A program made the translations under genes and the position numbers. Positions 12,811 through 56,268 of a stretch of 64,000 nt of DNA are shown here, piece after piece (within the stretch, counting starts at the first letter, position 1; every line of letters starts with the position of its first letter). The stretch spans positions 21,467 through 85,466 of the forward strand of contig NZ_FTNE01000010.1 of the NCBI RefSeq assembly GCF_900156265.1. Reading direction: 5' to 3'. Below the pieces are notes generated by a model, which did no database searches, was not told the DNA's origin, and saw only the letters and a list, made by a program, of their open reading frames with translations. The stretch comes from Acidiphilium rubrum. GTDB lineage: Bacteria; Pseudomonadota; Alphaproteobacteria; Acetobacterales; Acetobacteraceae.

Positions 12811-13018
12811 AAGGAAGATCAGGGGGCTTTGCCCCCCGAACCCCCCACTAAGGGCGGAGCCCTTAGAACCCGCTAGTTTTAGGCAAGGGGAGGGCGCTGC
12901 CTCGGTGGTTCCGCTGATCTGGCCTGGACAGCCCTCCCCTTGCCTAAAACTAATGGATTTTAAAGGCTCCGCCTTTAACGGGGTCCAGGGGCAGAGCCCC
13001 TGGCCTTCTTCCCGAAAG
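12811..13018. repeat. Multi-hairpin palindromic element, copy 1
   Basis: A nested palindrome fills the betB-betA gap. The core stem is a perfect 22-bp inverted repeat, 12874-12895 with 12931-12952 (TAGTTTTAGGCAAGGGGAGG outward to centre), closing a 35-base loop. Outside it sit smaller hairpins: GGGGGC/GCCCCC and AAGGGC/GCCCTT on the left, AAAGGC/GCCTTT and CCAGGGGC/GCCCCTGG on the right. The same design recurs at 35270, 41749 and 56024. Orientation is opposite to copies 2 and 4. The right end reaches to 11 bp before the betA start, so it forms the betA leader. Confidence 0.9.
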
Positions 13019-13029
13019 GCACCAACCCC

Positions 13030-14685
13030 ATGACCGAGTATGATTACGTCGTTGTCGGAGCAGGCTCCGCGGGGTGTGTGTTAGCGGCGCGGTTATCGGA
13101 GGATGCCGGGGTTTCGGTTTTGTTGTTGGAGTATGGCGGATCGGATCGATCGGTGTTGATACAGATGCCGAGTGCGTTATCGATGCCGATGAACATGCCG
13201 AAGTATGATTGGGGTTATCACAGCGAACCCGAGCCGCATTTGGGGGGGCGGCGGATGCATACGCCGCGCGGCAAGGTGTTGGGCGGATCGTCTTCGATCA
13301 ACGGGTTGGTTTATATTCGCGGCAATCCGCTGGATTTCGACCGGTGGGAGGAGATGGGCGCGCGGGGCTGGGCGTATCGGAATGTGTTGCCGTATTTCAA
13401 GCGTGCCGAGACGCGTGATGAGGGCGGCGATGCGTGGCGGGGTGGCGAGGGGCCGTTGCACACGAAATATGGGCCGCTGCGCAATCCGCTATACCAGGCC
13501 TTCATCGAGGCGGGACGGCAGGCGGGATATCCGGTGACCGAGGATGTCAACGGGTATCAGCAGGAGGGGTTTGGCCGGATGGACATGACGGTTCATCGCG
13601 GCCGGCGGTGGAGTGCGGCGAATGCGTATTTGCGGCCGGCGCGGGGGCGGGCGAATTTGACGGTGGAGTCCCGCATTCTGGTTTCGCGTGTGGTGTTCGA
13701 GGGGTCGCGTGCGGTGGGGGTGGCGTATCTGCGGCGGGGCCAGGAGGTTGTGGTGCGGGCGCGGCGCGAGGTGGTTTTGGCGGCCGGGGCGATCAATTCG
13801 CCGAAGCTGCTAAAATTATCGGGGGTTGGCCCGGCGGATGAGTTGCGGGCGCACGGCATCGGCGTGGTCGCGGATCGTCCGGGGGTTGGCGAGAATTTGC
13901 AGGATCATCTGGAGTTTTACTTCCAGTATGCCTGCACCCAGCCGATTACATTGTATTCGAAGATGAATCCGCTGGCGAAGGCGTTGATCGGCCTGCGGTG
14001 GCTGGCGTTGCGCGATGGTTTGGGGGCGACCAATCATTTCGAGAGTTGCGGGTTTATTCGCTCGCGTGCGGGGATCGATTATCCGGATATCCAATATCAT
14101 TTCCTGCCGCTCGCGGTGCGGTATGATGGCAAGGGAATAGCGTCCGAGCATGGGTTTCAGGCGCATGTCGGCCCGATGCGGTCGCGCAGCCGGGGGTGGG
14201 TGCGGTTGCGCGGGGCTGATCCGGCGGCGGCGCCGTCGATCGTGTTCAACTACATGAGCGATCCGGAGGATTGGGTCGATATGCGGGCGTGTGTGCGGCT
14301 GACGCGCGAGATTTTTGCGCAAGATGCGTTCGCGCCGTTCCGGGGGCGCGAGATTGCGCCGGGTAGCGGCGTGGTGAGTGATGCCGAGATTGATGCGTAT
14401 ATCAGCAAGAGTGTCGAGAGCGCGTATCATCCGTGTGGCACGTGCAAGATGGGCGCGGTGGACGACCCGATGGCGGTGGTGGCACCGGACACCAGGGTGA
14501 TCGGGGTGGAGGGGCTGCGGGTGGCGGATAGTTCGATCATGCCGCGGGTGACGACGGGGAATTTGAACGCGCCGACCATCATGATCGGGGAGAAGGCGGC
14601 GGATCATATCCGGGGTGTGGCGTTGCTGCCGCCGAGCAATGCGCCGTTTTACACGGCGAAGAATTGGGCAGTCGCGCAGCGATGA
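13030..14685 (+). CDS. betA: Choline dehydrogenase
   Basis: A 551-residue GMC flavoprotein; E. coli BetA is 556. The FAD motif is [18 protein letters not shown] at the N-terminus, followed by [15 protein letters not shown]. The active-site histidine region is [12 protein letters not shown] and the C-terminal signature is [20 protein letters not shown]. It oxidises choline to betaine aldehyde at the membrane. No convincing ribosome-binding site precedes the ATG; only GAAAGG within the palindromic element is available. Codons are markedly G-ending, unlike betB just upstream, although both lie on the same strand. Confidence 0.93.
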
Positions 14686-14740
14686 CGGAATTATACAAGT
14701 CTTGTGCCGAGTGAGTGCGCGTAGACCGTGTAGGCTTGTG

Positions 14741-14804
14741 CCTTAACTAGCGGGGTCTGGGGCCTAAGGCCCCAGCGGGTCCAGGGCAGAGCCCTGGCCT
14801 TAAC
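14741..14804. repeat. Half copy of the palindromic element family
   Basis: In the betA-soxB gap, ACTAGCGGGG is followed by two hairpins, CTGGGGCC/GGCCCCAG (14757-14775) and CCAGGGC/GCCCTGG (14781-14797). This mirrors the outer right half of the large elements (ACTAGCGGGTT, hairpin, GGGTC, hairpin GGGGC) but lacks the long central stem and the other half. CCTTAAC borders both ends. It may be a decayed or minimal copy and could influence soxB expression. Confidence 0.6.
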
Positions 14805-14817
14805 TTGGAGCCTTGAT

Positions 14818-16071
14818 ATGCAGAAATTCTCAGCCTTTGCCTTGGCGAAAGAGGCGTTATCCGGCCAGAAAGGCTGGACCCGCCAATGGCGCGATGCCGC
14901 ACCCAAACCGGCCTATGAGGCCATTATTGTCGGTGGCGGCGGGCATGGGTTGGGCACGGCGTATTATCTCGCGAAGAAGCACGGGCTGCGCAACATCGCG
15001 GTGCTGGAAAAGGGCTGGATCGGCGGCGGCAATACCGGGCGCAACACCACGATCATTCGTTCGAATTATCTGTTCGACGAGAGTGCCGCGCTTTACGACC
15101 ATTCCGTGAAGTTGTGGGAGGGGTTGTCGGCGGATTTGAATTATAACGTCATGTTCTCGCAGCGTGGCGTGATGATGCTGTCGCATAATGTGCATGACGA
15201 GCAGGTGTTCAAGCGGCATGTGCATGCAAACCGGTTGAACGGTGTCGATAACGAGTGGTTATCGCCCGATCAGGCGAAATCGTTCTGCCCGCCGCTGAAC
15301 ATCGCACCCGGGATGCGTCATGCGGTGACGGGGGCGGCTTTGCAGCGGCGTGCGGGTACGGCGCGGCATGATGCGGTGGCGTGGGGCTATGCGCGGGCGG
15401 CGGATGCGCTCGGGGTCGACATCATTCAGAATTGCGAGGTCACCGGGATCGATCGTGATGCGAGCGGTCGGGTCAGCGGGGTGCAGACCAGCAGGGGTGC
15501 GATCGCGACGCGGCGGTTGGGGATTGTCGCGGCGGGCAATACATCGGTGCTGATGGCGATGGCGGGGCAGCGGATGCCGCTCGAGAGTTATCCGTTGCAG
15601 GCGCTCGTGTCCGAGCCGATCAAGCCGATTTTTCCGTGCGTCGTGATGTCGAACACGATCCACGCCTATATCAGCCAGTCCGACAAGGGCGAGCTGGTAA
15701 TCGGCGCGGGGACGGATGCGTATATTTCGTACAGCCAGCGCGGGGCCTTGCATATTTCATCGCACACGCTCGAAGCGATCTGCGAATTGTTTCCGATGTT
15801 CCGGCGGATGCGGATGCTGCGCAACTGGGGCGGTATTGTCGATGTGACGCCGGATCGCTCGCCGATCATCGCCAAGACCGAGGTGCCGGGCCTGTATGTG
15901 AATTGCGGCTGGGGCACCGGCGGGTTCAAGGCGACGCCGGGCTCGGCGGATTTGTTCGCCTACACGATGGCGAAGGACGAGCCGCACAAGATCAATGCGC
16001 CGTTCAACCTTGAGCGGTTCGGCGCCGGGCGATTGATCGACGAGGCGGCGGCTGCCGCTGTCGCGCACTGA
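14818..16071 (+). CDS. soxB: Heterotetrameric sarcosine oxidase, beta subunit
   Basis: A 417-residue DAO-family flavoprotein. IIVGGGGHGLGTAYYLAKKHG binds FAD, and RRAGTARHDAVAWGYAR contains the histidine known to bind FMN covalently in this subunit. LYVNCGWGTGGFKATP is typical near the C-terminus. It oxidises sarcosine to glycine with the one-carbon unit passed to tetrahydrofolate on SoxA. The ATG follows GGAG (14807-14810). soxD begins 14 bp after the stop. First gene of soxBDAG-sdaA. Confidence 0.93.
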   Translation: MQKFSAFALAKEALSGQKGWTRQWRDAAPKPAYEAIIVGGGGHGLGTAYYLAKKHGLRNIAVLEKGWIGGGNTGRNTTIIRSNYLFDESAALYDHSVKLWEGLSADLNYNVMFSQRGVMMLSHNVHDEQVFKRHVHANRLNGVDNEWLSPDQAKSFCPPLNIAPGMRHAVTGAALQRRAGTARHDAVAWGYARAADALGVDIIQNCEVTGIDRDASGRVSGVQTSRGAIATRRLGIVAAGNTSVLMAMAGQRMPLESYPLQALVSEPIKPIFPCVVMSNTIHAYISQSDKGELVIGAGTDAYISYSQRGALHISSHTLEAICELFPMFRRMRMLRNWGGIVDVTPDRSPIIAKTEVPGLYVNCGWGTGGFKATPGSADLFAYTMAKDEPHKINAPFNLERFGAGRLIDEAAAAAVAH

Positions 16072-16085
16072 CAAGGAGATTTAAG

Positions 16086-16349
16086 ATGTTAGTGATTTCC
16101 TGCCCTTATTGCGGCGATCGTCCTGAAATCGAGTTCTCCTATGGCGGTGAGGCGCATGTGGTGCGCGCACCCGCCAGTGTGACCGATGAGGAATGGACGG
16201 CGTTTCTTTACCAGCGCAGCAACGCGCGCGGCAGCTACGCCGAACGCTGGCGGCACGCGCATGGGTGCGGGCGGTTTTTCAACGCGCGGCGCAATACCGT
16301 GACGGATTTTTTCGAGCAGACCTACAAGATCGGTGAGGCGCCGGCATGA
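16086..16349 (+). CDS. soxD: Heterotetrameric sarcosine oxidase, delta subunit
   Basis: An 87-residue small subunit. The zinc-binding residues are visible as CPYCGDRPE near the N-terminus and HAHGCGRFFNARR near residue 58. An AAGGAG site (16073-16078) precedes the ATG. The stop overlaps the soxA start by 4 bp. Its length and position between soxB and soxA are standard. Confidence 0.93.
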   Translation: MLVISCPYCGDRPEIEFSYGGEAHVVRAPASVTDEEWTAFLYQRSNARGSYAERWRHAHGCGRFFNARRNTVTDFFEQTYKIGEAPA

Positions 16350-19844: not shown

Positions 19845-19851
19845 CCCTGTC

Positions 19852-21213
19852 ATGATCAGCCTGTTCGATCTGTTCAAAATCGGCATCGGACCGTCATCGT
19901 CCCACACGGTCGGGCCGATGCGGGCTGCGCATAGTTTTGCGGCCGACCTGGCCGATCCGGCTGGCGTGGCGCACGTGCAAATCACGCTGCTCGGTTCGCT
20001 CGCCTGGACCGGCAAAGGCCACGGCACGGATAAAGCCGTGATCCTCGGCCTGGCCGGTGAGGCGCCGGAAACGGTTGATCCCGATCAGGCGGATGCGATC
20101 GCCGCAGCGGTTACGACGGCTTGCGTGCTGAAACTCGGCGGGTTTCACCCGATCAAATTCGATCCGGCAACGGATATTGTGTTCGACTACGAAACACCCA
20201 CCACGCGACACCCCAACACACTCGAATTCAGCGCACGCGATGCCGCCGGCAGCATTCTCGCCGCCGAACGCTGGTGCTCGGTCGGCGGGGGTTTCGTCAT
20301 TCGCGAAGATGAAAAACCCGATCTTGGCGCGATTACCGAAACGGTGCCCTATCCCTTCGCCAACGCCGTCGATCTGCTGCGGCTCGGCGAAGCCTCCGGC
20401 CTGTCGATCGCGGCCATGATGCGCGCCAATGAATTCTCGCTGCGCGACCCGGCAACCGTGCTCGCCCACGCCGACCTGGTGCTTGCCACCATGATGAACG
20501 GCATCGAACGCGGGATGCGGACCACCGGCACCCTGCCCGGTGGTTTGAAAATCACCCGGCGCGCCCCCGCGCTGCACGCAAAAATGCAGACCGACGCTGC
20601 ACGCAACGACCTCGCACCCCATGAAAAAATGGACTGGGTCAGCCTGTTCGCGATGGCGGTGAACGAGGAAAACGCCGCCGGTGGCAAAATTGTCACCGCG
20701 CCGACCAACGGTGCCGCCGGGGTCATTCCCGCCGTGCTGCGCTATTTCCGCGATTTCTGCCCCGGCGCCACCCATGAATTGATGCGCGACTTTCTGTTCA
20801 CCGCCACCGCGATCGGCGGGTTGTTCAAGACCAACGCCTCGATCTCGGGCGCTGAAGTCGGCTGTCAGGGCGAGGTTGGGGTCGCCGCCTCGATGGCCGC
20901 CGCCGGCCTCGCCGCCGCACGCGGGGCAACCAACCGTCAGATCGAAAACGCCGCGGAAATTGCCATGGAACATCACCTTGGCATGACCTGCGACCCGGTC
21001 GGCGGGCTGGTGCAAATTCCCTGCATCGAACGCAACGCGTTCGGCGCGATCAAAGCCATCAGCGCCGCCTCGCTCGCGGCACGGGGCGATGGAACCCACC
21101 ATATCTCGCTCGATCAGGTGATCGCGACCATGCGACAGACCGGGGCGGATATGAATAGTAAATATAAAGAGACCTCGCTTGGGGGGCTCGCTGCTAATTT
21201 TATTGAGTGTTAG
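19852..21213 (+). CDS. sdaA: L-serine dehydratase, iron-sulfur type
   Basis: A 453-residue single-chain enzyme; E. coli SdaA is 454. It starts MISLFDLFKIGIGPSSSHTVGPM, the classical N-terminus. Cluster cysteines are visible in EVGCQGEVG, MTCDPVGG and IPCIERN. It deaminates L-serine to pyruvate. Directly after soxG it would consume serine formed from glycine plus the methylene-THF released by SoxBDAG, joining choline catabolism to central carbon. A longer upstream frame overlaps soxG and is rejected. A hairpin terminator follows 15 bp after the stop. Confidence 0.93.
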   Translation: MISLFDLFKIGIGPSSSHTVGPMRAAHSFAADLADPAGVAHVQITLLGSLAWTGKGHGTDKAVILGLAGEAPETVDPDQADAIAAAVTTACVLKLGGFHPIKFDPATDIVFDYETPTTRHPNTLEFSARDAAGSILAAERWCSVGGGFVIREDEKPDLGAITETVPYPFANAVDLLRLGEASGLSIAAMMRANEFSLRDPATVLAHADLVLATMMNGIERGMRTTGTLPGGLKITRRAPALHAKMQTDAARNDLAPHEKMDWVSLFAMAVNEENAAGGKIVTAPTNGAAGVIPAVLRYFRDFCPGATHELMRDFLFTATAIGGLFKTNASISGAEVGCQGEVGVAASMAAAGLAAARGATNRQIENAAEIAMEHHLGMTCDPVGGLVQIPCIERNAFGAIKAISAASLAARGDGTHHISLDQVIATMRQTGADMNSKYKETSLGGLAANFIEC

Positions 21214-21223
21214 GGTGAAGGGG

Positions 21224-21262
21224 AAGACTTCTTTTTTGTAAAAAAGAAGCAAAAAACTTTTT
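21224..21262 (+). terminator. A/T-tract hairpin terminator after sdaA
   Basis: CTTCTTTTTT/AAAAAAGAAG pairs across GT, followed by CAAAAAACTTTTT, starting 11 bp after the sdaA stop. The same hairpin in reverse occurs at 22045-22081. Similarity between the two extends inward for about 20 more bases (CTGGGACT region, 21266-21287 against 22023-22037). Confidence 0.75.
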
Positions 21263-23690: not shown

Positions 23691-23693
23691 TCC

Positions 23694-28019: not shown

Positions 28020-28541
28020 ATGCCGTTTAGCTCGGCCAACACGAACGCAACCAATTCGACCGCCCAGGCACGCGCCAATGAGGTGCCGCAGCTCGATGAG
28101 ATCGACCGCCGCATCCTGACCGAATTGCAGGGCAACGGGCGGATGACCAATGTGGAGCTGGCGAGCCGCGCCGGGATTTCGCCGCCGCCCTGCCTGCGCC
28201 GCGTGCGCCGGCTTGAGGAAGCCGGGTTGATCAAGGGGTATCATGCCGAGACCGACCCGCAGAAACTCGGCTGGCAGATCCAGTTTTTCGCGATCGTTGG
28301 GCTCGATAGCCAGCGGCAAAGCGTGCTCGACGCGTTTGAACAGCTGGTCGGTTCGTGGGAGGAGCTGCGCGAGTGCCACATGATCCGGGGTGGTGGTGAT
28401 TTTCTGTTGAAATTCGTGGCGCGCGATGCGGCGCATGAGAACCGGCTGACCGAACAGCTCACCGGAGCGGATAATGTGACACGGGTGCAGACGTTGCAGA
28501 CCATTCGCACCAGCCGGGTGCTGGCGGGCGTGCCGATTTGA
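28020..28541 (+). CDS. lrp: Lrp/AsnC-family transcriptional regulator
   Basis: A 173-residue regulator. The helix-turn-helix spans about residues 25-75 (LDEIDRRILTELQGNGRMTN, ISPPPCLRRVRRLEEAGLIKGY), followed by the RAM ligand-binding domain (HMIRGGGDFLLKFVARD). It is longer at the N-terminus than E. coli Lrp by about 20 residues. ATG at 28020; an AT-rich 189-bp gap with TATGCAATTATATTACGCG (27976-27994) separates it from divergent trxB. The next gene overlaps its stop by 4 bp. Confidence 0.9.
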   Translation: MPFSSANTNATNSTAQARANEVPQLDEIDRRILTELQGNGRMTNVELASRAGISPPPCLRRVRRLEEAGLIKGYHAETDPQKLGWQIQFFAIVGLDSQRQSVLDAFEQLVGSWEELRECHMIRGGGDFLLKFVARDAAHENRLTEQLTGADNVTRVQTLQTIRTSRVLAGVPI

Positions 28542-32846: not shown

Positions 32847-33932
32847 ATGACTGATACGGCCGGCGCCGGGTTGCCGGGCGACCCACGGTTTTTTCCGCGC
32901 TCCGGCCCGTTCACCCTGGCCGAGGTTGCCGCCGCGATCGATGCGGCGGCACCGACCGGCACGCCTGACCGGATGTTTCGCGGCATCGCGCCGTTGCAAA
33001 GCGCGGGGCCGGACGAAATCAGCTTTCTCGATAACCGCAAATACCTCAATCTGCTGGCCGAAACACGGGCCGGCGCCGTCATTCTGCTGCCTGAGTTGGC
33101 CGATCGGCTTGGCAAGCAGAGCCTCGCGCTGCCGGTTGCGCACCCCTACCTCGCCTGGGCCAAGGCTGGCGGGCTGTTTCATAAACTGCCGCCGGCCAAC
33201 CCCGGCATTCACCCCACCGCGATTATCGATCCCGCCGCGCGGGTCGACGCCGCTGCCGAAATCGGCCCCTACGCCGTCATCGGGCCACGCGTCGAAATCG
33301 GGCCGCGCAGCATCATCGGGCCGCATTGCGTCATCACCGCCGGGGTGATCATCGGCGCCGATTGCCGCATCGCCGGGCATGTCTCGATCGGCTTTGCCAT
33401 CATCGGTGATCGGGTCACGCTGCATCCGGGCGTGCGCGTCGGGCAAGATGGCTTCGGCTTTGCGCAGTCGCCCACCGGCTTTGTCAGTGTTTCGCAACTC
33501 GGCCGGGTGCTGATCCACCATGATGTCGATATCGGCGCCAATACCACGATCGATCGCGGCTCGGCGCAGGATACCATCATCGGCGCCGGCACCCGCATCG
33601 ATAACCAGGTGCAGGTCGGTCATAATGTTCAGCTCGGCCGCTGCTGCATCATTGTCGCACAGGTCGGTATCTCGGGCTCGACCATCATCGAGGATTTCGT
33701 GGTCGCCGCCGGGCAGGCCGCGTTCTCGGGCCATCTGCACATCGGCAAAGGCGCGCGGATCGGGCCGCAGGCCGGGGTGATGAGTAATCTGGATGCGGGG
33801 GTCGAGGTGCTCGGCAGCCCGGCCCAGCCCTCCAAAGCGTTCTTTCGCGAAGTCGCCATGATCCGCCGCTTTGCGCGGCGCGACAGAATGCGGCATTCTG
33901 AGACCAAGCCGGACCAACCCGCCGGCGACTGA
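32847..33932 (+). CDS. lpxD: UDP-3-O-acylglucosamine N-acyltransferase
   Basis: A 361-residue acyltransferase. The N-terminal uridine-binding domain (about residues 1-110) contains DEISFLDNRKYL, and the left-handed beta-helix has repeated I-G hexapeptides (for example VIGPRVEIGPRSIIGP). TTIDRGSAQDTIIG and VQVGHNVQLG give the conserved catalytic histidine region. It adds the N-linked hydroxyacyl chain in lipid A synthesis. It starts 9 bp after skp. Confidence 0.94.
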   Translation: MTDTAGAGLPGDPRFFPRSGPFTLAEVAAAIDAAAPTGTPDRMFRGIAPLQSAGPDEISFLDNRKYLNLLAETRAGAVILLPELADRLGKQSLALPVAHPYLAWAKAGGLFHKLPPANPGIHPTAIIDPAARVDAAAEIGPYAVIGPRVEIGPRSIIGPHCVITAGVIIGADCRIAGHVSIGFAIIGDRVTLHPGVRVGQDGFGFAQSPTGFVSVSQLGRVLIHHDVDIGANTTIDRGSAQDTIIGAGTRIDNQVQVGHNVQLGRCCIIVAQVGISGSTIIEDFVVAAGQAAFSGHLHIGKGARIGPQAGVMSNLDAGVEVLGSPAQPSKAFFREVAMIRRFARRDRMRHSETKPDQPAGD

Positions 33933-33962
33933 ACCATTCACAGGAAATACGGATCCATCCCG

Positions 33963-34463
33963 ATGGACGGCACCACACCAGACAGCAGCGCGCCGGCCAC
34001 ACCAGCCGGACGCACTATCGATATCGCCGGCATCTTGCACGCGATTCCGCATCGCTATCCCTTCCTGCTGATCGATCGCGTGGTCGAACTGGTCGAAAAC
34101 GTCTCGGCGGTCGGGGTCAAGAACGTCTCGGTCAATGAAAACTTCTTCCAGGGCCACTTCCCCGGTCACCCCGTGATGCCGGGCGTGCTGATCATCGAAA
34201 GCATGGCCCAGACCGCCGCCGTGCTGGTGGTTGAAACGCTCGGTCCGTCCGAAGCGGGCAAGATCGTGTATTTCATGTCGGTCGAAGGGGCGAAATTCCG
34301 CCGCCCGGTGGTGCCCGGCGATACGCTGCGCATCCATGTTGTTAAAGAGCGCAACCGTGGCAATGTCTGGAAATTCCACGCCGTCGCGCGGGTCGATGGC
34401 GTCGCCGTCGCCGAAGCCACCTACGCCGCTATGATTATGGATCAGAAAGCCGACCACACATGA
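33963..34463 (+). CDS. fabZ: 3-hydroxyacyl-ACP dehydratase
   Basis: A 166-residue hot-dog enzyme. ILHAIPHRYPFLLIDRV, NFFQGHFPGHPVMPGVL (catalytic His) and LIIESMAQTAA (catalytic Glu) are all present. It dehydrates hydroxyacyl-ACP in fatty acid synthesis and shares its substrate pool with LpxA and LpxD. About 20 extra N-terminal residues are Pro/Ala/Thr-rich. Its stop overlaps lpxA by 4 bp (ATGA). Confidence 0.94.
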   Translation: MDGTTPDSSAPATPAGRTIDIAGILHAIPHRYPFLLIDRVVELVENVSAVGVKNVSVNENFFQGHFPGHPVMPGVLIIESMAQTAAVLVVETLGPSEAGKIVYFMSVEGAKFRRPVVPGDTLRIHVVKERNRGNVWKFHAVARVDGVAVAEATYAAMIMDQKADHT

Positions 34464-35266
34464 TCCACCCCCTCGCGGTCGTCGATCCGAACGCCAAAAT
34501 CGGCGCGCGCGTCCATATCGGCCCGTTCTGCATGGTCGGCCCCGGCGCCATCCTCGCCGATGGCGTCGACCTGGTTTCGCACGTCGTGATCGATGGCCGC
34601 ACCAGCATCGGGGAAGGCACCAAAATCTTTCCGTTCGCCACCATCGGCATGGCACCGCAGGATCTGAAATATAAAGGCGAAGATACCGAAACGATCGTCG
34701 GCGCGCGCTGCACCATCCGCGAACACGCCACCATCAATCGCGGCACCGCACCCGGCGGCGGTATCACCCGCGTCGGTGACGATTGCCTGTTGATGACCGC
34801 CGTGCACGTCGCCCATGACTGCCAGCTCGGCAACGGCATCGTTATCGCCAATAACGTCGTCATGGGCGGCCACGTCGAAATCGCAGACCGCGCCATCATC
34901 GGCGGCGCCGCCGCCATCCACCAGTTCGTCCGGATCGGTCAAGGGGCGATGATCGGCGGGATGTCCGGCGTCGAAGCCGACGTGATCCCCTACGGCATGA
35001 TCATCGGCAACCGCGCCCGGCTCGCCGGCCTCAATATCATCGGGCTGCGCCGGCGTAACATCGATCACGCCACCATCCACCACATGCGCGCCACCTTCAA
35101 CGCCCTGTTCCGCGATTGCACCCACCCGTTCCAGGAACGCCTCAAAACCCTGCAATCGCAACCCCACGACCCCCACACCACCGAAATCCTCGCCTTCGCC
35201 GCCAACCCCGGCAAACGCGGCCTGATCCGGACGACGACCACCGCCGCTGACGACGCCGAGGGGTGA
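34460..35266 (+). CDS. lpxA: UDP-N-acetylglucosamine O-acyltransferase
   Basis: A 268-residue left-handed beta-helix enzyme. It begins IHPLAVVDPNAKIGARVHIG, has the catalytic histidine region TAVHVAHDCQLGNG and GGAAAIHQFVRIG, and a helical C-terminal domain with GLRRRNI. It performs the first step of lipid A synthesis. The 3' end is extremely C-rich, and a palindromic element begins 4 bp after the stop. Confidence 0.95.
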   Translation: MIHPLAVVDPNAKIGARVHIGPFCMVGPGAILADGVDLVSHVVIDGRTSIGEGTKIFPFATIGMAPQDLKYKGEDTETIVGARCTIREHATINRGTAPGGGITRVGDDCLLMTAVHVAHDCQLGNGIVIANNVVMGGHVEIADRAIIGGAAAIHQFVRIGQGAMIGGMSGVEADVIPYGMIIGNRARLAGLNIIGLRRRNIDHATIHHMRATFNALFRDCTHPFQERLKTLQSQPHDPHTTEILAFAANPGKRGLIRTTTTAADDAEG

Positions 35267-35269
35267 CGG

Positions 35270-35503
35270 GGTGGGGTGGGGTGAGGAAGAAGGCCAGGGG
35301 CTCTGCCCCTGGACCCCGTTAAAGGCGGAGCCTTTAAAATCCATTCGTTTTAGGCAAGGGGAGGGCGACCCAGGCCAGATCGACGGAAAATCCCAGGCAG
35401 CGCCCTCCCCTTGCCTAAAACTAGCGGGTTCTAAGGGCTCTGCCCTTAGTGGGGGTCGAGGGGGCAAAGCCCCCTGGCCTGCTTCCTCACCGAACCCCAC
35501 CCC
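35270..35503. repeat. Multi-hairpin palindromic element, copy 2
   Basis: Inverted relative to copy 1. The core stem pairs 35347-35367 with 35401-35421 around a 33-base loop, which, read in reverse, shares most bases with the loops of copies 1 and 4. Left side hairpins: CCAGGGGC/GCCCCTGG and AAAGGC/GCCTTT; right side: AAGGGC/GCCCTT and GGGGGC/GCCCCC. The outermost arms (GGGGTGGGGTGAGGAAG and its imperfect complement ending at 35503) are specific to this copy but still complementary to each other. It fills the lpxA-lpxI gap completely. Confidence 0.9.
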
Positions 35504-36322
35504 ATGACCCTAGGCATCATCGCCGGCGGTGGTCCGTTGCCCGGTCAGGTGGCGTTGGCGGCGCTTGCGGCGGGGCGTGGGGTTTTTGTGGTGGCGTTGG
35601 AGGGGTATGCGGATTTGCGGGTGGTTGGTGGGTTTCCGCATGAGGTGGTGCGGCTGGGTGCGGTGGGTGTTGCGGTGGCGGCGTTGCGGCGGGCGGGGTG
35701 TGTGGATTTGGTGTTGGCGGGGCCGGTGAAGCGGCCATCGTTGTTGGATTTGCGGCCGGATGCGGTGGGGGCGCGGTTGCTGGCGCGGGTGGGGCGGGCG
35801 GCGTTTGCGGGGGATGACGGGTTTCTGGCAGCGATCGTGCGGGTTCTGGGCGAGGAGGGGTTTCGGGTTCTGGGGGCGCATGAGGTGATGGCGGAGGTTT
35901 TGGCGCCGGCGGGTTTGCTGACGCGGGTGGGGCCGGATGCGGCGGCGTTGGCGGATATTGCGCGGGGTGTTGCGGTGGTGCGGGCGATGGGTGTGGCGGA
36001 TGTCGGCCAGGCTTGCGTGGTGCAACAAGGGATTGTGCTGGCGGTCGAGGCGGTTGAGGGCACGGATGCGATGTTGGCGCGTGCTGGGGCTTTGGCGCGA
36101 CCGGGGCCGGGCGGGGTGTTGGTCAAGCTGGTGAAGCCGGGGCAGGACCGGCGGGCGGATTTGCCGACGTTGGGGCCGGCGACGATTGCCGGGGCGCGTG
36201 AGGCTGGGTTGCGCGGTGTGGCATTCGAGGCGTTGGGCGCCATATTGATCGAGCGCGCGGCGATGGTTGCGTCGGCGGATGGGGCGGGGTTATTTCTGCT
36301 CGGCATCGATCCGGCGGCTTGA
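35504..36322 (+). CDS. lpxI: UDP-2,3-diacylglucosamine pyrophosphatase, LpxI type
   Basis: A 272-residue protein. N-terminal LGIIAGGGPLPGQVA, GPVKRPSLLDLRPD, GDDGFLAAIVRVLGEEGF, VVQQGIVLAVEAVEGTDAML and VKLVKPGQDRRADLPTLGP match the LpxI family, which replaces LpxH in alphaproteobacteria. It forms lipid X. The ATG abuts the palindromic element, with no purine-rich ribosome-binding site in the CCCCACCCC before it. Codons are extremely G-rich, in sharp contrast to lpxA on the same strand. lpxB is not next, as it often is. Confidence 0.93.
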   Translation: MTLGIIAGGGPLPGQVALAALAAGRGVFVVALEGYADLRVVGGFPHEVVRLGAVGVAVAALRRAGCVDLVLAGPVKRPSLLDLRPDAVGARLLARVGRAAFAGDDGFLAAIVRVLGEEGFRVLGAHEVMAEVLAPAGLLTRVGPDAAALADIARGVAVVRAMGVADVGQACVVQQGIVLAVEAVEGTDAMLARAGALARPGPGGVLVKLVKPGQDRRADLPTLGPATIAGAREAGLRGVAFEALGAILIERAAMVASADGAGLFLLGIDPAA

Positions 36323-36360
36323 TGATCGTTGGGTCATAATCGTTGGAAAGGGAAACCAGA

Positions 36361-36756
36361 ATGAGCGGCGAGTTTCAGTATCTGCATACGATGATCCGGG
36401 TGAATGATCTGGAGGAGAGCATCGGCTTTTATACCAAGTTGCTGGGGATGAAGGAGTTGCGCCGGACTGATGTGCCGGACGGCAAGTATACGCTGGCGTT
36501 CGTGGGGTATGGTGGCGAGAAGGACCACACGGTGCTTGAGCTGACCTATAATTACGGCACCGATCATTACGATCAGGGCACGGCGTTCGGCCATCTGGCG
36601 CTGGGTGTGGCGGACATCAAGGCGACTGTGGAAAAACTGCGGGCGGCGGGTGCGAAGATTTCGCGCGAGCCGGGCCCGGTGAAGTTCGGCACCACGGTGA
36701 TTGCGTTCATCGAGGACCCGAACGGCTACAAGATCGAGCTGATCGAGCGCCACTGA
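36361..36756 (+). CDS. gloA: Lactoylglutathione lyase (glyoxalase I)
   Basis: A 131-residue vicinal-oxygen-chelate protein. Metal ligands are visible in [10 protein letters not shown] (His), VLELTYNYG (Glu), FGHLALGV (His) and YKIELIER (Glu). [16 protein letters not shown] is typical. It isomerises the glutathione hemithioacetal of methylglyoxal. The ATG at 36361 follows GGAAAGGGAAACC, better than the upstream GTG. The next gene begins one base after its stop. Confidence 0.92.
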
Positions 36757-36757
36757 G

Positions 36758-38032
36758 ATGAGCACCGCGCCGGTTCCGCCGATTCCCGCGTTGCGGCAGG
36801 GCAAGAGCCTGTCGTTTCGGGCTTTGTCGGCGGGGTTTGGCGCGGTGGAGGCGGTGGTGCCGCGCCATTGGCCGGCGGTGACGGCGGATGGCATTGCGCG
36901 GGCGGCGGGGGTTTCGCTCGATGGGGCGGCGCGGGAGGGTTTGGCGCGGCTGACCGAGGCGATGGCGCGCGAGACGCATCTTTCGTTGTTCGGGCGGGTT
37001 TCGGTGCGGTATGATCTGACAAGGCTGGCCCGCAATGCTGCGCTGATCGAGCGGATGCATGCGGAGACGCCGGCGATCGGGGCGGCGCCGGTGGTGGCGC
37101 CGCTGTTCATTATGGGGTTGCCGCGGTCGGGCACCAGTTTTTTGCATACGCTGCTTGGCTATGATCCGGACGTGATGGTGCCGCGGGTGTGGCAGACGCT
37201 GTATCCGGCGCCGCGGCCGCGCGATTTCGACAAGCGGGGAAGTGCGGCGGCGCGCAAGACGGATCGGCAGTTGGATATTTTCGCGGGGATGGCGCCGGAT
37301 TTTCCGGCGATTCATCCGATCGATGCGGACAGTCCGCAGGAGTGCAGCGAGATTACCGCGCATGTGTTCCAGTCGCTGCGGTTCGATACGACGTTCCGGG
37401 TGCCGTCCTACACGACATGGCTCGATGGGTTTGGCCATGATGCGGCGTTTGCGTTTCACAAGCGGTATTTGCAGGCGTTGCAGCATGGGGTGGGGGCGAA
37501 ATTCTGGGCGCTGAAATGTCCTGACCATACGTTTTCGATTCCGGCGATTCTGGCGACCTATCCGGATGCGCGATTCGTGGTGGTGCATCGGGACCCGGTG
37601 CATGTCTTTGCCTCGGTCGCGCATATGACGGAGGTGCTGCGGGCGCCGTTCCTGCGGGAGATCGACACGGTGGAGATCGGCCGGCAGGTGACCGAGCGCT
37701 GGATCGAAGGGGCGAAATTGCTGGTGGCGTTCGACCGCAGCGGCGCGGTGCCGCCGGAGCGGTTGATCAACCTGCACTATGAGGATCTGACCGGTGATCC
37801 GGTCGCGACGGTGGATCGGGTCTATCGCCATTTCGGCGAGACGCTGTCACCGGCGGCGGCGGCGGCGATGCGCGGCCATCTGGCTGCGGCGCCGCGCGGC
37901 GGGTATGGCCGCAACCGCTATCAGATGGCGGATTTTGGGATCAATCCTGAGCGGCTCCGGCCGGATTTCGCGCCGTATATGGATTATTTCGGCATCAATA
38001 CGCGGGCTGCACCCGGAGAGCTGCCGGCATAG
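36758..38032 (+). CDS. Sulfotransferase-family protein (Sulfotransfer_3-like)
   Basis: A 424-residue protein. The phosphosulfate loop is LFIMGLPRSGTSFLHTLLG (about residue 118). ECSEITAHVFQS, FWALKCPDHTFSI and ARFVVVHRDPVHVFASVAHM (3'-phosphate region) are shared with bacterial sulfotransferase_3 proteins. The acceptor is unknown; lipid or glycan sulfation in the envelope is possible. It starts with TGAGATG coupling to gloA. Second sulfotransferase-like gene in the window; the two are only distantly alike. Confidence 0.75.
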   Translation: MSTAPVPPIPALRQGKSLSFRALSAGFGAVEAVVPRHWPAVTADGIARAAGVSLDGAAREGLARLTEAMARETHLSLFGRVSVRYDLTRLARNAALIERMHAETPAIGAAPVVAPLFIMGLPRSGTSFLHTLLGYDPDVMVPRVWQTLYPAPRPRDFDKRGSAAARKTDRQLDIFAGMAPDFPAIHPIDADSPQECSEITAHVFQSLRFDTTFRVPSYTTWLDGFGHDAAFAFHKRYLQALQHGVGAKFWALKCPDHTFSIPAILATYPDARFVVVHRDPVHVFASVAHMTEVLRAPFLREIDTVEIGRQVTERWIEGAKLLVAFDRSGAVPPERLINLHYEDLTGDPVATVDRVYRHFGETLSPAAAAAMRGHLAAAPRGGYGRNRYQMADFGINPERLRPDFAPYMDYFGINTRAAPGELPA

Positions 38033-41748: not shown

Positions 41749-41980
41749 CGCGGGGCTCCGCCCCACACCCGGCCAGGGGCTCTGCCCCTGGACCCCGCTA
41801 AGGGCGGAGCCCTTAGAACCCGGAGTTTTAGGATTGGGGAGGGCGCGGCACGGCGTTGCGACGGCGAAGACGTAGCAGCGCCCTCCCCAATCCTAAAACT
41901 AATGGATTCCAAAGGCTCCGCCTTTGGTGGGGGTCCAGGGGGCAAAGCCCCCTGGTGGGGTTTGGGGCGAAGCCCCATCA
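41749..41980. repeat. Multi-hairpin palindromic element, copy 3 (variant)
   Basis: The core stem is a perfect 22-bp inverted repeat, 41824-41845 with 41879-41900. It differs from the other copies at three adjacent positions (GGATTGGGG instead of GGCAAGGGG), and the opposite arm carries the matching changes. The central loop is unlike the others. Side hairpins include CCAGGGGC/GCCCCTGG, AAGGGC/GCCCTT, AAAGGC/GCCTTT and GGGGGC/GCCCCC, plus an extra outer pair of small hairpins, GGGGCTCCGCCCC on the left and GGGGCGAAGCCCC on the right. It lies between the GNAT start and the ettA stop. Confidence 0.88.
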
Positions 41981-41993: not shown

Positions 41994-43673
41994 TCAGCGC
42001 GTCAGCGGGCGATATTTGATCCGGTGCGGTTCGGTCGAGTCTGCACCTAGTCGGCGGCGTTTGTCTTCTTCGTAGGCCTGGAAGTTGCCTTGGAACCATT
42101 CGACGTGGCTATCGCCTTCGAAGGCGAGGATGTGGGTGGCGAGGCGATCGAGGAACCAGCGATCATGCGAGATGATGACGGCGCAGCCGGGGAATTCCAT
42201 CAGCGCGTCTTCGAGGGCGCGCAGGGTGTCGACATCGAGATCGTTGGTCGGTTCGTCCAACAAGATGACGTTGTGTTCGCCTTTGAGCATTTTGGCGAGG
42301 TGGACGCGGTTGCGTTCGCCGCCCGAGAGGATGCCGACTTTCTTTTGCTGATCGGAGCCTTTGAAGTTGAAGGCACCGACATAGGCGCGTGATGGCACCG
42401 AGCGTTTGCCGAGCGTGATGACGTCGGTGCCGCCTGAGACTTCTTCCCAGACCGATTTATCGGGGTTGAGGCTGTCGCGTGACTGATCGACGTAGCCGAG
42501 CTTGACGGTGTCGCCCACTTTGAAGGTGCCGCCGTCGGGGTGTTCGACGCCGGTGATCATTTTGAACAGCGTGGTTTTGCCGGCACCGTTCGGCCCGATC
42601 ACGCCGACGATGCCGCCTGGCGGCAGTTTGAACGAGAGACCGTCGATCAGGACGTGGTTGCCGAAGCCTTTGCGGAGGTCTTCCGCCTCGATCACGGTGC
42701 CGCCGAGGCGCGGGCCGGGTGGAATGATGATTTCCGCGACGCCGCCGACCTGTTCGTTCGATTTCGCGAGCATATCCTCGTAGCGGGTGATGCGGGCCTG
42801 GTTTTTGGCCTGACGGGCCTTGGGCGAGGCGCCGATCCACTCGCGCTCTTCCTTGAGGGCGCGCTGGCGGCCGGATTCTTCCTTTTCCTCCTGCGACAGG
42901 CGTTTTTGCTTCTGTTCGAGCCAGGAGGTGTAATTACCCTCGAACGGGTAGCCGCGGCCGCGCTCGAGTTCGAGAATCCAGTTGGTGACGTTTTCGAGGA
43001 AATACCGGTCATGGGTGACCACGATCACGGTGCCGGCGTAGTTGCGCAGGGTTTTTTCGAGCCAGGCGACCGATTCCGCATCGAGATGGTTGGTCGGTTC
43101 GTCGAGCAGCAGGAGGTCGGGTTTTTCGAGCAGGAGCCGGCAGAGGGCGACGCGCCGGCGCTCGCCGCCGGACAGGTTGGTGACGGGGCTTTCCGCGGGC
43201 GGGCAGCGCAGGGCATCGAGCGCGATGTCGATCCGCCGGTCGAGCTCCCAGCCGTCATCGGCGTCGATTTTTTCCTGCAACATGGCCTGTTCGGCGAGCA
43301 GATCGTTCATTTTGTCGTCGTCCATCGGCTCGGCGAATTCCTCGGAAATCGCGTTGAACCGGGCCAGTGCCGCGCGCAGATCGGCGAAGGCGAGGGCGAC
43401 GTTGTCACCGACGGTGAGGTCCGGTTCGAGATGTGGCTCCTGCGACAGATAGCCGATGGTGGCGCCCTCGGCGGCCCAGGCCTCGCCGCCGAACTCCTTT
43501 TCGATGCCCGCCATGATTTTCAGCAGCGTCGATTTGCCGGCACCGTTGACGCCGAGAACGCCGATTTTCACGCCGGGCAGGAACGAGAGGGTGATGCCTT
43601 TGAACACCTCGCGCCCGCCGGGGAAGGCTTTGGTGAGGTCTTTCATGACGTAGACGTATTGGTATGCGGCCAT
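41994..43673 (-). CDS. ettA: ABC-F translational throttle protein EttA
   Basis: A 559-residue cytoplasmic protein with two ABC ATPase modules; E. coli EttA is 555. Walker A motifs are GVNGAGKSTLL and GPNGAGKTTLF, and signatures LSGGERRRVALCRL and LSGGERNRVHLAKM. The arm and linker appear as EEKEESGRQRALKEEREWIG and KARQAKNQARITRYEDML. It binds the ribosomal E site and gates elongation by the energy state. Start ATG 43673; upstream extension is unsupported. Confidence 0.95.
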   Translation of the reverse strand: MAAYQYVYVMKDLTKAFPGGREVFKGITLSFLPGVKIGVLGVNGAGKSTLLKIMAGIEKEFGGEAWAAEGATIGYLSQEPHLEPDLTVGDNVALAFADLRAALARFNAISEEFAEPMDDDKMNDLLAEQAMLQEKIDADDGWELDRRIDIALDALRCPPAESPVTNLSGGERRRVALCRLLLEKPDLLLLDEPTNHLDAESVAWLEKTLRNYAGTVIVVTHDRYFLENVTNWILELERGRGYPFEGNYTSWLEQKQKRLSQEEKEESGRQRALKEEREWIGASPKARQAKNQARITRYEDMLAKSNEQVGGVAEIIIPPGPRLGGTVIEAEDLRKGFGNHVLIDGLSFKLPPGGIVGVIGPNGAGKTTLFKMITGVEHPDGGTFKVGDTVKLGYVDQSRDSLNPDKSVWEEVSGGTDVITLGKRSVPSRAYVGAFNFKGSDQQKKVGILSGGERNRVHLAKMLKGEHNVILLDEPTNDLDVDTLRALEDALMEFPGCAVIISHDRWFLDRLATHILAFEGDSHVEWFQGNFQAYEEDKRRRLGADSTEPHRIKYRPLTR

Positions 43674-49321: not shown

Positions 49322-51649
<2,328 letters not shown>

Positions 51650-51658
51650 TCCAAAACC

Positions 51659-51690
51659 GGGCCGGAACGACAGTAGTGTCGTTCCGGCCC
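51659..51690. terminator. Bidirectional hairpin after clpA
   Basis: A perfect 14-bp stem, GGGCCGGAACGACA with TGTCGTTCCGGCCC, around GTAG, starting 10 bp after the clpA stop and ending 11 bp before the stop of the converging gene. No U tract on either side. Confidence 0.7.
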
Positions 51691-51700
51691 GTGGCTGCCG

Positions 51701-52861: not shown

Positions 52862-52972
52862 GAATAGCAGTTAACGTGATCGTGACCAAGACAAAAATTG
52901 GAGTTTTCTATAAAAGATCAAAATATAGAATATAGACGAAAAACTGATGCTTTCTAAATCCGGTGTGCGGTC

Positions 52973-54154
52973 TTACCCCACCAACTCAACCACCTCGACC
53001 CGGCGCCCCTTCGCCGCCAGGGCGATTTTGCCCGCCTTCAGACGTAGCGCATCCGTGCCGAACACGTCCGCCCGCCAGCCGGACAGGCAGGGCAGATCGG
53101 GCGCATCCTCGCCGGCCAACGCATCGATATCATCGCCTGACGCGATCAGCCGTGCCGCGACGTGATTGGCGTTGGCGCGCTCGGCGAGCAGCACTTTCAG
53201 CAAGGCGACCAGCGCGGGCGATGGCTTGATCATGTCGTTGGCGCGCGGCAGGTGCGGCAGGTCGCGCTCCGGCAGCGCCTTGGCCGCAGCGATCACGCTG
53301 AGCAACGCGGTGCCCGATTTACCCTCGGCGAAGCCGCGGGTGATGCCGCGCACCCGCGTCAGCCCCTCGGCATCGCCGGGGGCGAGGGCCGCGAGTTCAG
53401 GGATCTGTTCGTCCTTGATGACGCGCTGGCGCGGAATGTTGATCCGCATCGCCTCACGCTCGCGCCACGCCGCGATCGCCTGCACGAGCGCGAGTTGCCG
53501 GCGGTTGGCACCGCGCAGCTTCAGCCGCCGCCACGCGTCCGCCGGGTCGGTGCGGTAGGTGCCGGGCTCGTTCAGAATAGCGGCTTCCTCGGCCACCCAA
53601 TCGAGCCGGCCCTCGCGCACCAGCCGATCGCGCAACGCCTCGTACACCAGGCGCAGCCAGGTTACGTCGGCCGCGGCATAGGTGACCTGCGCGGGTGAAA
53701 GCGACCTTGCCTGCCAGTCGGAAAACCGGTGCGCCTTGTCGATGCTGCCGCCCGCCAGGGAGGACACCAGCGTGTCATACCCCACCTGATCGCCGAACCC
53801 CGCGACCATCGCGGCTACCTGGGTGTCGAAAATCGGGGTCGGCACGACACCGAATTTCAGCAGGAAAATCTCGATATCCTGCCGGCAGGCGTGAAACACC
53901 TTGACCACACCTTGGTTCGCGAACAACGCGCCGAGCGGTGCCAGATCGAGGTTGGGGGCCTGCGCGTCGATCACCGCGACATCGCTGACACCGCCAAGCT
54001 GGATCACGCATAATTCGGGGTAATAGGTCCGCTCACGCATGAACTCGGTATCGACCGTCACATACGGCTCAGCGGCCAGGCGTTCGCACAGGGCGGCCAG
54101 GGCTTCGCTGGTGGTGATCAGGACGGGTTCGGCGAATTTAACGTGCGGCTTCAT
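52973..54154 (-). CDS. rnd: Ribonuclease D
   Basis: A 393-residue DEDD exonuclease. Exo I is VDTEFMRERTYYPELCVIQL, Exo II HACRQDIEIFL and Exo III YAAADVTWL. An HRDC domain (NRRQLALVQAIAAWREREAM) follows, then a second helical module. It trims tRNA 3' ends. Start ATG 54154; the longer reading is unsupported. It diverges from aspS across 83 bp. Confidence 0.93.
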   Translation of the reverse strand: MKPHVKFAEPVLITTSEALAALCERLAAEPYVTVDTEFMRERTYYPELCVIQLGGVSDVAVIDAQAPNLDLAPLGALFANQGVVKVFHACRQDIEIFLLKFGVVPTPIFDTQVAAMVAGFGDQVGYDTLVSSLAGGSIDKAHRFSDWQARSLSPAQVTYAAADVTWLRLVYEALRDRLVREGRLDWVAEEAAILNEPGTYRTDPADAWRRLKLRGANRRQLALVQAIAAWREREAMRINIPRQRVIKDEQIPELAALAPGDAEGLTRVRGITRGFAEGKSGTALLSVIAAAKALPERDLPHLPRANDMIKPSPALVALLKVLLAERANANHVAARLIASGDDIDALAGEDAPDLPCLSGWRADVFGTDALRLKAGKIALAAKGRRVEVVELVG

Positions 54155-54237
54155 TATAACGGAGTGCCACGCCCTGTCTTGACAGGAAAGACCCACGACG
54201 TCCATTTGCCCCTGATTTCATTCAGGACTGGTCCCCG

Positions 54238-56016
54238 ATGCACGAATATCGCACCCATACCTGCGGCGCCCTGCGCGCGGCCGATGCCGGCAGCACCGCC
54301 CGCCTCTCCGGCTGGGTCAACGTCAAGCGCGACCACGGCGGGCTGCTGTTCATCGATCTGCGCGATCATTTCGGCATCACCCAATGCGTGATCCCGAACG
54401 GCTCCGCCGTGTTCGATCTGGCGGAAGCCACCCGCGTCGAAAGCGTGATCACAGTGACCGGCACGGTGGTCGCGCGCGACGCCGCCACCGTCAATCCGCG
54501 GCTGCCGACCGGTGAAATCGAACTGCGGGTCGAGGATTTCGTGCTTCAATCCGCCGCCGATGTGCTGCCGATCCAGGTGGCGGGCGATGCCCAGTTTCCC
54601 GAAGACCTGCGCCTGCGCTATCGGTTCCTCGATCTGCGGCGCGAGAAACTGCACCGCAACATCATGCTGCGCGCCAATGTGGTGACCTGGCTACGCCGGG
54701 AAATGACCGCGCGCGGCTTTACCGAATTCACCACCCCCATTCTCACCGCGTCATCACCCGAAGGGGCGCGCGACTTTCTGGTGCCCTCGCGCCTGCACCC
54801 TGGCCAGTTCTACGCCCTGCCCCAGGCACCCCAGCAGTTCAAGCAATTGCTGATGGTCGCCGGGTTCGACCGCTATTTCCAGATCGCGCCCTGCTTTCGC
54901 GATGAAGCCAGCCGCGCCGATCGCGCCCCGGGCGAATTCTACCAGCTCGATTTCGAAATGAGCTTCGTCGATCAGGAAGAAGTGTTCGCCACGATCGAAC
55001 CCGTGCTCGGCGGGCTGTTCAAGGAATTCAGCGGCGGCAAAACCGTCAGCGACTGGCCGTTTCCGCGCATCGCCTACGACGACGCGCTGCTGACCTACGG
55101 CTCGGACAAGCCCGATCTGCGCAACCCGCTGAAAATCGCGGACGTAACCGATGCCTTCCGGGATTCCGGCTTCGGCCTGTTCGCCAAAATCGTCGCGGGC
55201 GGCGGCGTGGTCCGCGCCATCCCCGCACCCGGCGCCGGAGGCAACCCGCGCAGCTTTTTCGATAAACTCAACGATTGGGCCCGCACCGAAGGCGCCGGCG
55301 GCCTCGGCTACATCATTTTCGAGGCGGACGGCGCCAAAGGCCCGATCGCGAAAAACCTTGAACCGGCGCGCGCCGAAGCCATCCGCACCGCCGTGGGCGC
55401 ACAACCGGGCGATGCCGTGTTCTTCGCCGCAGGCCCGCGCGATACCGCCGCTAAATTTGCCGGCAGCGTGCGTACCAAACTCGGTAACGACCTCGGCCTG
55501 ATCAGCAACGATAGCTTCAAATTCTGCTGGATCGTCGATTTCCCGATGTTTGAAATGGACGAAGACACCAAACAAATCGCCTTCAGCCATAACCCGTTCT
55601 CGATGCCCCAAGGCGGACTCGAAGCCCTCAATACCCGCGACCCGCTGACCATCAAGGCATTCCAGTACGATATCGTGGTCAACGGCGTCGAACTCTGCTC
55701 CGGCGCCATCCGTAACCATAAACCCGAAATCATGCTGCGCGCGTTCGAAATCGCCGGCTACGGACCCGAAATCGTCGAAGCCCAGTTCGGCGGCATGCTC
55801 AACGCCTTCCGCTACGGCGCCCCACCCCACGGCGGCGCCGCACCAGGCATCGATCGCATGGTCATGCTGCTCGCCGATGAACCCAACCTGCGCGAAGTCA
55901 TCACCTTCCCCCTCAACCAACAAGGCCAAGACCTCATGATGGGCGCACCCGCCCCCGTCGATGCCACCCGCCTCCGCGAACTGTCCCTGGCACTGGCCCC
56001 ACGTAAGCCGAACTGA
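54238..56016 (+). CDS. aspS: Aspartyl-tRNA synthetase
   Basis: A 592-residue class II synthetase. The N-terminal OB-fold has [20 protein letters not shown]. Motif 2 is [19 protein letters not shown] and motif 3 [14 protein letters not shown]. The bacterial insertion domain lies between. [11 protein letters not shown] is the alphaproteobacterial form. Whether it also charges tRNA-Asn cannot be told from sequence. Its 3' third is strongly C-rich and runs into a palindromic element 8 bp after the stop. Confidence 0.95.
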
Positions 56017-56023
56017 TGCCGGG

Positions 56024-56268
56024 GGTGGTGAGGGTGAGGTAGAAGGAAGCAAGGCCAGGGGCTCTGCCCCTGGACCCCGTTAAAGGCGGAGCCTTTAAAA
56101 TCCATTAGTTTTAGGCAAGGGGAGGGCGACACAGGCCAGATCAACGGAACCACCGAGGCAGCGCCCTCCCCTTGCCTAAAACTAGCGGGTTCTAAGGGCT
56201 AAGCCCTTAGTGGGGGTCGAGGGGGCAAAGCCCCCCGCCTTGCTTACTTCCGCCTCACCCTCACCGCC
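56024..56268. repeat. Multi-hairpin palindromic element, copy 4
   Basis: Same orientation as copy 2. The core stem is a perfect 23-bp inverted repeat, 56106-56128 with 56162-56184, around a 33-base loop nearly identical to that of copy 1 in reverse. Left hairpins: CCAGGGGC/GCCCCTGG, AAAGGC/GCCTTT; right: AAGGGC/GCCCTT and GGGGGC/GCCCCC. The outer arms GGTGAGGGTGAGG (56027-56039) and CCTCACCCTCACC (56253-56265) are perfect complements of each other but unlike the outer arms of other copies. It overlaps the etfB stop by a few bases. Confidence 0.9.

Follow-up and report, generated by a model that had tools for sequence, protein, structure and literature searches.

In Acidiphilium rubrum, a stretch of 64,000 nucleotides (contig NZ_FTNE01000010.1, positions 21,467 to 85,466; hereafter the window) contains several copies of a long, multi-hairpin palindromic element in its intergenic gaps. 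Around this element the composition of a single strand switches sign, from C/A-rich on the left to G/T-rich on the right, and both signs are seen at 35 of 41 places. The flanks outside the core are imperfect inverted repeats of each other with a sequence specific to each site, and the core has the opposite orientation at half of the sites scored in a related genome. The skew, the copy-specific arms and the inversions go beyond what the initial annotation of the window had noticed. The explanation that we tentatively favour, and that may quite possibly be correct, is that the element is a composite palindrome at the DNA level, that template switching remakes its arms and orientation, and that DNA synthesis runs outward from it.

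Below, G000 denotes the genome to which the window belongs (3.98 Mb), other G numbers denote comparison genomes and L numbers denote loci. About 40 of the 58 copies in G000 were examined, giving 41 places, which include L039, one copy split in two and counted twice for skew.

Structure of the element and its copies in the window

Direct reading of the window sequence confirmed four full copies and an arm-like half copy, as follows.

12811-13018, minus strand: full copy 1, flanked by plus-strand betB-like and betA-like genes; central stem 12874-12952
35270-35503, plus strand: full copy 2, flanked by plus-strand lpxA-like and lpxI-like genes; central stem 35347-35421
41749-41980, plus strand: full copy 3, stem GGATTGGGG replacing GGCAAGGGG, matched on both sides; central stem 41824-41900
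56024-56268, plus strand: full copy 4, between convergent aspS-like (plus) and ETF-domain (minus) genes; central stem 56106-56184
14741-14804, unstranded: arm-like half copy without central stem, by reading

Copies share a strongly conserved core of about 184 bp, which runs in the order hairpin A, hairpin B, central stem with loop, B', A'. As had been proposed, the central stems of all four full copies are perfect and 21-23 bp long, and copies occur in both orientations. The loops measure 31-35 bases (about 35 had been claimed), and every full copy has two small GC-rich hairpins on each side, where two or more had been described. We describe the element as two REP-like hairpins per side around a long central hairpin, and place its arm relatives within the same family. 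The central stem keeps its shape and varies in sequence: it is changed on both sides in copy 3, and stems in G011, G006, G009, G010 and G035 differ widely in sequence with pairing retained. Copy 4 alone was folded; as single-stranded DNA, positions 56010-56280 gave -105.9 kcal/mol (z = -13.4), equalled by 0 of 200 shuffles.

Gene pairs flanking the copies represent every relative direction. Pfam placed a GNAT gene (minus) and an ABC ATPase with ABC_tran_Xtn (minus) beside copy 3, and a class II tRNA synthetase with a GAD domain (plus) facing an ETF-domain gene (minus) beside copy 4; the initial annotation had named these neighbours GNAT-ettA and aspS/etfB. For betB/betA and lpxA/lpxI, the plus-strand directions agree with a gene call on the orthologous G007 sequence, and the names rest on sequence reading.

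Extra palindromic modules of the GGAGCC..AAGGTTCCAGCGATGCTCTTC type are nested in hairpin loops at L104, L106, L108 and L085 in G003 and at L052 and L062 in G000, and look as if palindromes insert into palindromes. At L050 and L038, tRNA-like 3' ends were seen by eye in the flanks, close beside the copy.

Strand skew around the element

Mean GC skew to the left and right of the element was -0.29 and +0.25 at 80-200 bp, and -0.13 and +0.07 at 800-1000 bp. The skew fades over about 2 kb, with outward values, at 14 elements of the window and a G003 contig, of 0.215 (0.12-0.5 kb), 0.167 (0.5-1 kb), 0.081 (1-2 kb) and 0.035 (2-3 kb). Three approximate territories were delimited in the window.

11000-15000, unstranded: skew territory of copy 1; plus strand C/A-rich to the left, G/T-rich to the right
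33400-37400, unstranded: skew territory of copy 2
54100-58100, unstranded: skew territory of copy 4

The three largest upward jumps in skew within the window all lie at elements (35550, 0.51; 13050, 0.43; 56300, 0.41). Next come a jump of 0.37 at 21150, next to an AT-rich hairpin, and one of 0.21 at 42000, where copy 3 lies, the latter barely exceeding the jumps at 28350 (0.20) and 9300 (0.19), places without a known element. For 14 elements of the window and a G003 contig, hand-listed with remnants excluded, the jump was positive in every case with a mean of 0.375, against a mean of 0, a standard deviation of 0.032 and a maximum of 0.129 in 5000 random sets. The G003 contig also shows downward jumps, to -0.34. 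GC skew is flat over the 32 matching, element-free flanks of G007, ranging from +0.03 to +0.09 on either side.

Elements with different central stems behave similarly in other Acidiphilium genomes, where an upward jump was found at all 18 scored elements (20 loci), at least one of which lies at a site shared with G000 (L192, orthologous to that of L040_1007). In G035, from another genus of the same family, three of three scored elements jump upward, as does the single one scored in G032. Altogether 26 of 40 loci were scored in this comparison (8 of 20 from other genera), the other 14 lacking a suitable stem close to where one was expected; four loci (L186, L199, L201 and L206) had been inspected earlier. 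Several loci of other genera showed no flip in that earlier inspection.

Two other candidates for the cause of the skew were rejected. Plain hairpins gave jumps of -0.152 and 0.075 (22331 and 128511 on contig C86 of G003) and of -0.095 and 0.037 (51658 and 7693 in the window). The AT-rich hairpin family gave 9 positive and 7 negative values in 16 rows, two of which are the same site. This second, multi-hairpin family (CTTCTTTTTT..AAAAAAGAAG, with AAAAGTTTTTTG ends) occurs in the window at 7693-7783, 21229-21262 and about 22043, and at L105, and in G003 it takes the place of the main element at L048; its copy at 21.2 kb coincides with a skew jump of 0.38.

The skew does not simply follow gene direction. 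The gain in skew over G007 was 0.142 where genes run toward the element (21 of 23 positive) and 0.271 where they run away from it (9 of 9). On the upstream side of co-directional gene pairs, the raw skew was positive in seven of eight (copies 1-3, L031, L040_1007, L048, L050 and L054), and the upstream gain over G007 in four of these pairs was 0.009, 0.146, 0.222 and 0.351. Gene directions were taken from gene calls based on G007 and from a Pfam scan of 40 of 67 candidate frames, with L033 and L059 outside the scan; Pfam gave no family for L051 (5 frames) or the left side of L060 (2 frames). Assigning direction by third-position GC content (GC3) and codon usage in so skewed a genome misread known genes, including the lpxI-like gene, and was dropped.

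Copy-specific mirrored outer arms

Outside the core, alignment revealed the following outer arms in the window.

12762-12817, unstranded: copy 1 outer arm, in and after the end of the betB-like gene; pairs with 13008-13059
13008-13059, unstranded: copy 1 outer arm, running into the start of the betA-like gene
35236-35289, unstranded: copy 2 left outer arm, overlapping the end of the lpxA-like gene by about 30 bp
35482-35535, unstranded: copy 2 right outer arm, overlapping the start of the lpxI-like gene by about 30 bp
55993-56050, unstranded: copy 4 left outer arm
56242-56298, unstranded: copy 4 right outer arm

The copy 2 arms extend into coding sequence on both sides, and part of this coding match may be a coincidence of codons. 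Flank complementarity was tested at 35 of the 41 places, six partial rows being dropped. A flank scored a mean of 22.2 with its own partner and 7.9 in mismatched pairs (sd 2.1, maximum 19.5), and the own partner ranked first in 30 of 35 copies. When the innermost 12 bp were excluded, the values were 17.0 and 7.1, with the own partner first in 26 of 35. Out to about 60 bp beyond the core, arm identity stays above that of mismatched pairs (0.81, 0.76 and 0.70 against 0.59-0.60).

The arms of L053 in G000 form a perfect 42-bp repeat, the left arm being by eye an inverted repeat of the last bases of the right-hand gene. At the empty L053 sites of G003, G011, G004 and G007, long arms were not seen by eye. 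Concerted change between arms is real but slow: both arms of L041 were altered together at 6 columns between two species, and across 20 sites shared by G000 and G003, 13 columns were concerted, 7 were swapped between arms and 186 retained the arm difference.

Inversion and partial loss of the core

Core orientation was scored at 20 sites shared by G000 and G003, at which both flanks were mapped in G003 with a gap of at least 215 bp. The core had the same orientation at 10 and the opposite orientation at 10, with the genes collinear. Three of the 10 inverted calls (L033, L035 and L039) have small margins, the loop and arms pointing different ways. L058, L060 and L061 have a flipped loop within the central stem. 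Partial losses in G003 were also recognized by eye, the core being deleted with the arms kept at L049 and half of the element being deleted at L051. At L048 of G003, an AT-rich palindrome stands by eye where G000 has the main element.

Direction of substitutions near the element

Substitutions were polarized with G007 as outgroup over 31 flanks. On the outward strand of the G000 lineage, C>T outnumbered G>A by 200 to 124 (per-site ratio 2.05, 1.51-2.84), A>G outnumbered T>C by 42 to 21 (2.27, 1.40-4.10) and C>G outnumbered G>C by 119 to 87 (1.74, 1.22-2.51), while the ratio for C>A was 0.46. Joint C>T and A>G change on one strand is the pattern that deamination of single-stranded DNA leaves. 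It is the 5' end of the exposed strand that lies at the element, a polarity as expected for the lagging-strand template of departing forks or for a strand displaced by outward synthesis. Resection of a double-strand break was rejected as a source, as it would expose the wrong strand. Divergence from G007 is slightly higher near the element than far from it (0.258 against 0.221), and a mutation hotspot is not claimed.

Distribution in the genome and in relatives

The element is not confined to the window. A pattern for the central palindrome matched 58 times on each strand of G000 and its reversed control 0 times, and blast returned 81 matches in the same genome (40 of 124 first-look candidates were scored). 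Arm sites in G000 number 64. Among the 60 genomes searched, the central-stem pattern was also found in G003 (31 matches), G011 (4), G012 (3) and G001 (2); the exact pattern had 0 matches in the other 55, although elements with other stems escape it. A scan of named genomes matched 43 stretches, 34 of them from Acidiphilium (30 in Acidiphilium sp. PA, 3 in isolate STC_15 and 1 in 37-60-79). The remaining nine, single matches in unrelated organisms, we take as chance. L053 is filled in G000, and the site is empty in G003, G011, G004 and G007. The non-autonomous mobile element suggested by the initial annotation fits the dispersed copies, the uneven stem counts between species and the empty L053 site; a role as the structured RNA that it also suggested is not supported. 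In the reading that we favour, intergenic gaps have been populated by the element as a non-autonomous interspersed repeat, and it acts at the level of DNA structure.

Two further observations concern relatives. In G003, L083 (1300-2283) joins the right flanks of L029 and L057, which lie about 8 kb apart in G000, pointing to a rearrangement that ends at elements. In G026, from another genus, the family members L211, L212 and L217 have perfect stems 56-60 bp long that enclose loops of 0-5 bases.

A possible mechanism and its alternatives

In the explanation that we favour, hairpins would stall or restart replication, with arm homogenization, inversion and occasional outward synthesis as the outcome. 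It is likely that polymerase template switching at the hairpin makes the arms alike and flips the core; PMC8604942 and PMC8794818 describe inverted-repeat arms that become alike and spacers that flip in this way. It is plausible that the long palindromes survive since the hairpin nuclease SbcCD is missing. The boldest step is that copies would occasionally launch outward DNA synthesis on both sides, by fork restart or by break-induced or strand-displacing synthesis, so that the strand with its 5' end at the element would be exposed and its C and A would decay to T and G. A related case in Escherichia coli is given in part of PMC6061781, in which divergent forks leave a cleaved palindrome when RecBCD control is lost in recD mutants. 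Arm homogenization and inversion stand close to what is observed; the outward synthesis is what we infer. A more far-reaching form of this explanation, in which the dispersed palindromes act as many small bidirectional starts of DNA synthesis that produce an origin-like sawtooth skew, with template switching rebuilding arms and flipping cores, appears doubtful at present.

Of the nuclease, which cuts such hairpins, only the SbcD half was searched. It was found above the cut-off in 1 of 21 genomes (G001) and not in the Acidiphilium genomes G000, G003, G004, G006, G007, G010 or G011. SbcD matched 13 of 14 control genomes, 8 of them over the cut-off and Caulobacter not among them, and AddA matched all 21 genomes, 18 of them over the cut-off.

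Several results weigh against this explanation. Partial SbcD matches of 50-53 bits, below the cut-off, exist in G003 and G002. The skew flip is absent at 6 of the 41 places, the single copy of G007 (L016) shows no clear flip, and only one of four G026 elements is positive (mean 0.01), L211, L212 and L217 giving -0.01, 0.16 and -0.08 with no consistent skew. The left flanks of G007 are not flat in TA skew (-0.19 to -0.03, with the right side at about 0), although those of G000 are more strongly skewed (-0.43 to -0.12). The gene upstream of copy 1 has gained a mere 0.009 in GC skew over G007. In the G003 lineage, with G007 as outgroup, C>T showed no bias (0.97, 0.67-1.38), C>G had the reverse tendency (0.69) and A>G stood at 0.73. 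When G011 served as outgroup, over 12 flanks and with the two lineages pooled, C>T, C>G and A>G were 1.18, 0.67 and 0.88, and outward C>T against G>A was 55 to 48 in the G000 rows alone. Support for present activity thus comes from a single lineage. G000 and G003 are no more diverged close to elements (0.048 at 60-120 bp) than farther away (0.072 beyond 450 bp). Further, a 10-bp palindrome is seen by eye at the empty L030 site of G003, so that an arm can be present in part before insertion. Lastly, G003 retains the skew at L030, L048 and L049 despite the core being gone or replaced; the cause of the skew and its present activity are therefore not proven, and insertion was not shown to have caused skew since G000 and G003 separated, G003 being skewed where the core is missing.

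One rival explanation is outward transcription, in which promoters firing both ways, or R-loops from untranslated transcripts, would expose the non-template strand on both sides. The strand polarity fits such a process, as do the larger skew gain where genes run away from the element and the very small upstream gain at copy 1. Against this stands the upstream side of the co-directional pairs, positive in all but one, where no read-through points backwards, and where the gains known for four pairs run from 0.009 to 0.351. The G011-outgroup result, the TA skew of G007 and the small upstream gain at copy 1 lowered our estimate of the favoured explanation and raised that of outward transcription, which we nevertheless hold to be rather unlikely. 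An ordinary MITE (miniature inverted-repeat transposable element) or BIME-like repeat could instead have entered existing palindromic terminators at pre-existing skew switches, neither arms nor skew being its doing. Many copies do lie between gene ends, and the empty L030 site in G003 holds a palindrome running stop to stop, with skew persisting on one side. Such a history is unlikely, since 11 mapped element-free sites in G007 lack long arms by eye (short palindromes occur at two), the G007 flanks are flat in GC skew, in four relatives the empty L053 site shows no such arms, and half of the shared cores are inverted.

The same frequency of inversion would suit a programmed switch in which a site-specific recombinase flips the core via the inverted arms. 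However, the arms vary among copies and leave no common crossover site outside the core, making a switch of this kind very improbable. The least probable of the alternatives is a structured regulatory RNA in leaders or intercistronic regions. Stems retained while their sequence changes on both sides, and several copies within co-directional gene pairs, are what it would lead one to expect. Outer-stem mismatches in the transcribed orientation, on the other hand, comprise 17 G-U and 21 A-C in seven co-directional copies, the copies lie between genes of every relative direction, and Rfam has 0 matches at the curated score in the window. The initial annotation had also offered a DNA cruciform site, and a reading at the DNA level is favoured over RNA because of this lack of a G-U excess, the range of gene directions and the Rfam result.

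Significance

If the skew is laid down by outward synthesis, each copy would be a natural recorder of sites of fork restart, and if this reading of the skew is true, a bacterium apparently without SbcCD would be a place to study long palindromes that remain uncut. It would also mean that perfect and covarying stems can arise by a mutation mechanism, without selection on RNA structure, and this natural repeat family would then be a warning for covariation-based RNA discovery.

Comparison with known systems

The element resembles REP, BIME and REPIN sequences, as portrayed in parts of PMC2817692, PMC3116915 and PMC3733652, in being an interspersed intergenic palindrome with inverted pairs of small GC-rich hairpins and tens to hundreds of copies. 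It differs from them in its long central hairpin, its copy-specific outer arms and the strand skew around most copies. Families with a GTAG or CGTC tag are named in a section of PMC3733652; alignment by eye found neither tag at the ends of the small hairpins, and one strand of the central loop contains CGTC. A REPIN driven by RAYT was rejected, PF01797 (Y1_Tnp, RAYT-like) failing to track the element: G000 has one weak match (26.7 bits, G000:C39:264055-264384), the element-carrying G003 and G011 have none, and the strong matches of the same genus are in G008, G002 and G005, all without an element match. Terminal inverted repeats of the MITE type are present, the core aligning with itself in reverse complement (76% for the copy in the window). 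In the empty and filled pairs of L053 and L030, no direct repeat was seen by eye, and L053 has an inverted copy of one flank.

A likeness to quasipalindrome template-switch mutagenesis, in which imperfect inverted-repeat arms become alike and spacers flip, emerges from portions of PMC8604942, PMC8794818 and PMC7202029. Here, in contrast, a whole dispersed family bears the signature, with arms of up to about 60 bp.

The rhizobial RIME/ABC and the Caulobacter CIR elements of alphaproteobacteria also lie between genes, as palindromic mosaics one to two hundred bp long. They are likened to the present element by description and not by sequence, and skew and core inversion are not known to be among their features. 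Mammalian replication N-domains show a sawtooth skew with sharp upward jumps at origins. An origin-like switch from C/A-rich to G/T-rich along the strand was found here as well, although the jumps stand at a bacterial palindromic repeat and fade within about 2 kb. In the open-licence literature searched, neither this element nor a skew switch at palindromes dispersed in a bacterial genome was found described. We regard the element as a new variant among interspersed palindromic elements.

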